From: Verrucomicrobiota bacterium
GTDB taxonomy: Bacteria > Verrucomicrobiota > Verrucomicrobiia > Verrucomicrobiales > DEV007
NCBI GenBank assembly: GCA_963205275.1
Contig: CAUJIH010000027.1
Location: forward strand, 40,095-104,094
Direction of reading: 5' to 3'
Length of the DNA: 64,000 bases
How positions within the stretch are numbered: position 1 is the first letter of the stretch; each line of letters starts with the position of its first letter. Below the pieces are notes generated by a model. The model was not told where the DNA came from. It was given only the letters and a program-made list of their open reading frames with translations, and ran no database searches. The translations under genes and the position numbers were made by a program. Shown one piece after another: positions 46,529 to 47,021 of this stretch.

Positions 46529-46801
46529 TTATTTCGGTGGCAGCTGAAACCTGCCTGCAATAATTCCTGGAACCGTTATATCTTCGTCCAATGCTTCCCA
46601 GCGCAGCGCAAATCCGTTTAACTCGATGCGCACTTGCGCAAGTTCTTCTTCTGATGCCTGAGAAAGAATCCGAAAGCGATCAACGGGGAACCCGACAATC
46701 CGTCCGTCATGGAGTTCGATGTAGACGATGCGCCCCTCCGACCAAGCTCGAATGGCTGCCGGTTCTGTAGACAAATGTGGTTCACCGATGATGGTAGTCA
46801 T
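46529..46801 (-). CDS. DUF2442 domain-containing protein
   Basis: 90 aa, with the family layout: an N-terminal beta-rich segment ([20 protein letters not shown]), then [20 protein letters not shown] and the C-terminal [19 protein letters not shown] signature. DUF2442 genes are very often found directly behind a DUF4160 gene, an arrangement that has been discussed as toxin-antitoxin-like but is not proven. Here its ATG lies inside the 3' end of the DUF4160 reading frame (20-bp overlap), so translation would normally be coupled. The upstream partner is broken, which may leave this gene poorly translated. Confidence 0.85.
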
Positions 46802-47021
46802 AAAATGCCTTTCTCAATGTAGCACAATTTTCGTATATGAGGCGTTCAATCTCTCGAAGGTCTTGCCGACGCACCCCACGATTGTATGCAAGAAGAATGG
46901 CCGGATCGAGCCAAAATTTACATTCTCCTTCTGTTGTGCGGACATGAATATGGGCTGGCTCCTGACTCTCATCGGAGTAAAAGTGAAATCGAAATGATCA
47001 TATGCGCAATACCGTGGGCAT
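46782..47021 (-). pseudogene. DUF4160 gene interrupted by a single in-frame TGA at codon 8
   Basis: Not in the ORF track. Reading the minus strand from the ATG at 47021 gives MPTVLRI, then TGA (46998-47000), then SFRFHFYSDESQEPAHIHVR ... FWLDPAILLAYNRGVRRQDL ... [17 protein letters not shown] and a normal stop at 46782. Both sides match DUF4160 (typical opening MPTVLRIGxFRFxFYS, then EPxHIHV and the FWL block). The TGA sits where family members have Gly, so one G-to-T change (GGA to TGA) explains it. No ATG or TTG lies between the stop and most of the domain. The total span of 80 codons fits the family. It could be a real nonsense mutation or a sequencing error. Confidence 0.82.

Follow-up and report, generated by a model that had tools for sequence, protein, structure and literature searches.

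The 64,000-nucleotide stretch analysed here (the window), from a draft Verrucomicrobiota genome of 109 contigs, carries near thiC what is very probably (roughly 0.88) a horizontally acquired and decayed type II toxin-antitoxin module of the dhiTA type, in which a nonsense codon has recently killed the toxin gene and the antitoxin frame is still open. By analogy with published work on relatives, the DUF4160 gene of such modules is the toxin and the DUF2442 gene the antitoxin. In Dickeya dadantii 3937, DhiT (DUF4160) blocks the growth of both Dickeya and E. coli K-12, an effect that is abolished by co-expression of DhiA (DUF2442); the toxin gene precedes that of the antitoxin, and the promoter is repressed by the pair itself (PMC8198452). 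On Thermus plasmids, a DUF4160/DUF2442 pair increases plasmid persistence, and in Thermus thermophilus a plasmid lacking the DUF2442 ORF yielded no transformants, whereas one lacking the DUF4160 ORF did (PMC12724237). The suggestion in the first-pass annotation that the two genes form a toxin-antitoxin-like pair is thereby backed by two published experiments. The window locus has a DUF4160 gene in first position and an intact DUF2442 gene in second, in toxin-first order on the same strand and overlapping, and its toxin frame is closed by a TGA at codon 8: it is a remnant of the dhiTA-type family, not a working member.

The locus and its single lesion

The features of the locus are as follows.

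46782 to 47021, minus strand: DUF4160 pseudogene (DhiT-type toxin) of 79 codons, the internal stop counted, followed by a final TGA
46998 to 47000, minus strand: nonsense codon TGA, codon 8 of the toxin frame, mostly Gly in homologues
46529 to 46801, minus strand: intact DUF2442 (DhiA-type antitoxin) gene, 90 aa, with the WEALDEDI motif (PF10387)
46782 to 46801, minus strand: 20-nt overlap of the toxin 3' end and the antitoxin 5' end, by reading
46808 to 46814, minus strand: AGAAAGG, likely antitoxin ribosome-binding site, within the toxin 3' codons
47305 to 49437, minus strand: thiC, upstream neighbour outside the module, on the same strand as the pair
49397 to 49501, minus strand: TPP riboswitch of thiC (RF00059, 71.5 bits), lying 5' of the gene as expected; context only

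The earlier description of an otherwise full DUF4160 frame broken by one nonsense codon agrees with both the translation and the profile search it had proposed. Specifically, positions 47021-46782 of the minus strand translate to MPTVLRI*SFRFHFYSDE...YDYHHR*, where the codon-8 TGA is the single internal stop and the sole lesion. The read-through frame matches PF13711 at residues 10-70 with 53.2 bits (E 3.4e-14; cut-off 23 bits), and a six-frame search of the whole genome also recovers it, with 52.6 bits. The annotation had further held that glycine normally occupies the TGA position, which is so in the close relatives L022, L023, L025, L031, L034 and L021 and fails for a few relatives with Ser or Leu. 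The family's invariant residues are E21, H24, H26 and G49. Since the first in-frame ATG, GTG or TTG past the TGA is a GTG at codon 50, beyond all four of them, reinitiation could not rescue the domain.

The adjoining DUF2442 gene is intact, as first described: its 90-aa frame is open and its product matches PF10387 with 51.6 bits. The overlap noted in the annotation is likewise present, with the DUF4160 stop (46782-46784) inside the DUF2442 gene, whose ATG lies at 46801. The AGAAAGG motif recurs in L022. A structural model of the window DUF2442 protein has a pLDDT of 83, and solved relatives exist (3k8r, 2x8n). For DUF4160, AlphaFold modelled an intact relative, L025, with a pLDDT of 88.7, as five strands followed by two helices; comparison of this model with the PDB gave no significant fold match (best E 0.54), and a profile search of PDB sequences found nothing. 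A promoter scan at the locus returned nothing clearly above chance, and an NCBIfam search gave no match. Assignment to a known defence system was considered and rejected, as PADLOC gave no match. A second DUF4160/DUF2442 pair, distant and intact, is found on another contig (C95) of the same genome. Between thiC and the pair, at 47165-47261, a direct repeat of 16-26 nt (AAAATCCGAAGCCTATCCGGTTCGTG, GGTTCGTGGTTGAAAA) occurs in two to three copies and may belong to a repeat dispersed in this genome.

Spread of the pair and lesions among its relatives

The nearest antitoxin relatives, 67-79% identical, come from Verrucomicrobiota and from records labelled Acidobacteria, Planctomycetes, Cyanobacteria and Gammaproteobacteria. 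These taxon labels point to horizontal spread of the pair, and the window copy was presumably acquired in this way. The pair is absent from the thiC stretches fetched from congeners (thiC was found in 27 of 34 genus genomes), and a similar, intact pair occurs at another site in one congener, G022. Plasmid records mostly annotate a complete pair; neither gene had close relatives in the viral contigs that were searched. In E. coli the pair resides in an integrative conjugative element, with both genes matched in four genomes and both open in H1, the one inspected. In a fifth genome, E. coli SW070917 (L229, 2779-3268), the element encodes DUF2442, and the toxin position is taken by a 67-aa ORF of unrelated sequence; DUF4160 and DUF2442 occur together in a related element from a different E. 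coli genome (L228). As a single example, this fits toxin loss.

The fate of the two genes was surveyed in 388 genomes of the phylum, searched separately with an intact DUF4160 relative and with its DUF2442 partner, and internal stops and split frames were scored with profiles made from relatives. An internal stop or frame split was present in 12 of 68 toxins (16 of 68 when lost 5' parts are counted), compared with none of 39 DUF2442 genes (Fisher p=0.004) and none of the 53 partners adjoining toxins (p=0.001). Scored as pairs, eight loci had a broken toxin and none a broken antitoxin (p=0.008). Many of the relatives are metagenome assemblies, so that some lesions may be errors, which would be expected in both genes alike. 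Twelve antitoxin partners with a profile match to their 3' part only are open ORFs of 86-130 aa. As a background, thiC showed one stop in 27 genus genomes over 200 codons each; per codon, toxin lesions are about 12 times as frequent. In one congener the thiC gene (L218; G016:C34:2413-3009) has an in-frame TGA, which may be real or an assembly error.

A second set comprised 79 loci found through the antitoxin and is therefore biased towards intact antitoxins, a bias that the toxin-first phylum set does not share; a few of its contigs also occur in the phylum set. In this second set, only the toxin was broken in 25 pairs and only the antitoxin in two (L033, L065; p=6e-6), or 15 versus two with strict lesions (p=0.002), and 11 further antitoxins had no recognisable toxin. 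The toxin lesions include stops (L022, L023, L064, L085), frameshifts (L026, L052, L070) and an internal deletion (L039), and some of the toxin-broken loci belong to isolate genomes, for example Mongoliibacter ruber (L064) and Jannaschia seohaensis (L085). In five more loci (L028, L037, L041, L042, L049) the toxin is reduced to its 3' part and the antitoxin is still open. The predicted ribosome-binding site of the antitoxin in the last toxin codons may explain why such deletion loci keep the toxin 3' tail.

On a tree of 41 antitoxins of the near subfamily, 22 of the 41 toxins were broken or missing, with 16 changes of state; broken toxins showed no clustering against shuffles on this weakly supported tree. 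The inference of repeated loss is independent of the details of the tree, because the lesions themselves differ. In the nearest relative, L022 (79% identical), codon 8 is open and the toxin has its own stop at codon 20: as the two stops differ in position, the losses in L022 and in the window are independent. Between these two loci dN/dS is 0.10 for the toxin and 0.06 for the antitoxin, with dS near saturation, and the window toxin has no second lesion; on this basis its inactivation looks recent. As for the two reverse cases, L033 (1895-2381) combines an antitoxin stop with an open toxin in which GERKFW replaces the GECKFW of the subfamily, a missense change that may render this toxin inactive, and L065 (880-1341) combines an antitoxin frameshift with an open toxin.

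The one-sided distribution is as expected from the roles proposed for the two genes, under a model in which loss of the toxin would be harmless or even beneficial to a cell that makes the antitoxin, and loss of the antitoxin alongside a live toxin would be selected against. Surviving inactivations would then fall mostly in the toxin, because a dead toxin costs nothing where the antitoxin is present and a dead antitoxin is harmful where the toxin is. The asymmetry in turn supports the assigned polarity, with DUF4160 as the toxin and DUF2442 as the antitoxin.

A DUF4160 subtype starting with (M/V)SPTVF was also encountered (L119, L121-L123, L164, L166, L167, L169, L170, L175, L179, L186). Its partners, where detected, are more divergent DUF2442-like proteins of about 86-130 aa, and the subtype may form a separate branch of the module.

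Fate of the orphan antitoxin and alternative readings

Both genes might be neutral debris, the antitoxin being open merely because it has so far escaped a hit. This is a plausible but doubtful account, which concerns the fate of the antitoxin and not the death of the toxin and so partly overlaps with the decayed-module reading. The apparent recency of the window lesion is in its favour, and so is L022, whose antitoxin (1591-1860), next to a dead toxin, has RREVLNKN in place of the conserved WEALDEDI, a motif loss suggestive of decay that proceeds from the toxin to the antitoxin. Against it, the five loci reduced to a toxin 3' part have lost most of the toxin, yet their antitoxins are open, and orphan antitoxins in close pairs have low dN/dS values of about 0.03-0.20, from small counts and with two rows whose alignment was out of register (L044-L047 antitoxin, L027-L031 toxin) excluded from the comparisons. 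Between L029 and L031, again with small counts, the broken toxin differs by 5 nonsynonymous and 2 synonymous changes and the antitoxin by 3.5 and 11.5. Retention of orphan antitoxins by selection is, on these counts, only suggestive. One form it could take, rather unlikely on present evidence, is that orphan DUF2442 proteins are kept as anti-addiction immunity to the DUF4160 toxins that plasmids and integrative elements bring in. If true, this would explain why, in the near subfamily, loci with a dead toxin and an intact antitoxin are as common as intact ones. The window antitoxin itself is presumably expressed and functional.

An assembly or sequencing error, with a gene that is intact in the cell and an artefactual TGA, is very unlikely. 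The rest of the frame carries no damage and still resembles those of intact relatives, and the genome is a draft, as such an error would allow. Random error would, however, affect both genes, whereas L022 and many other loci bear different lesions in the toxin and almost never one in the antitoxin, at a rate per codon in the toxin family about 12 times that of thiC. The codon-8 stop is thus probably real. That the toxin is still produced through UGA readthrough or recoding is scarcely credible: the remaining frame does appear constrained, but TGA terminates most long genes in the window, reinitiation is possible from codon 50 only, and there is no conserved recoding site, because the lesions of relatives are scattered over unrelated positions, frameshifts and deletions among them. 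A code in which TGA specifies glycine, like readthrough, was rejected on the same count, because TGA closes more of the window's long ORFs than any other stop codon (18 of 31, among them that of thiC).

Significance for DUF4160/DUF2442 modules

The decayed module in the window resembles several known systems. It shares with dhiTA of Dickeya dadantii 3937 the same two domain families, a toxin gene in first position and overlapping genes on one strand; the overlap reported for Dickeya is -3 bp (PMC8198452), whereas the window has a 20-nt overlap and the codon-8 stop. The persistence-enhancing module of Thermus has the domain pair and order of the window, and its second gene is required to tolerate the first, but it is intact and plasmid-borne, whereas the window pair is toxin-dead and lies in a genome contig beside thiC. 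Similar cases have been described in ccdO157 of E. coli (PMC2654758), the parE pseudogene of Caulobacter and the frameshifted yacB of Shigella (PMC7354431); in these loci the system decays or the toxin is inactivated and the antitoxin remains, as in the window, but they belong to unrelated protein families. Toxin-dead loci, orphan antitoxins and the anti-addiction model are thus already established (PMC2654758, PMC7354431), and because toxin-dead and decaying modules are established in other families, the window locus is a new example of a known phenomenon.

Taken alone, the locus is one more decaying toxin-antitoxin pair, and toxin-first decay is known in other families. The new part is the family-wide, one-sided pattern of lesions; a small literature search, confined to open-access papers, found no survey of lesion asymmetry in DUF4160/DUF2442 pairs. 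The expectation of the first-pass annotation that inactivation of one partner only would be informative is borne out, since the asymmetry holds in tests across relatives. One-sided decay across unrelated genomes provides natural genetic support for the toxin and antitoxin roles, beyond that from overexpression, and the loci that carry it make available a set of natural orphan antitoxins for testing the anti-addiction idea.
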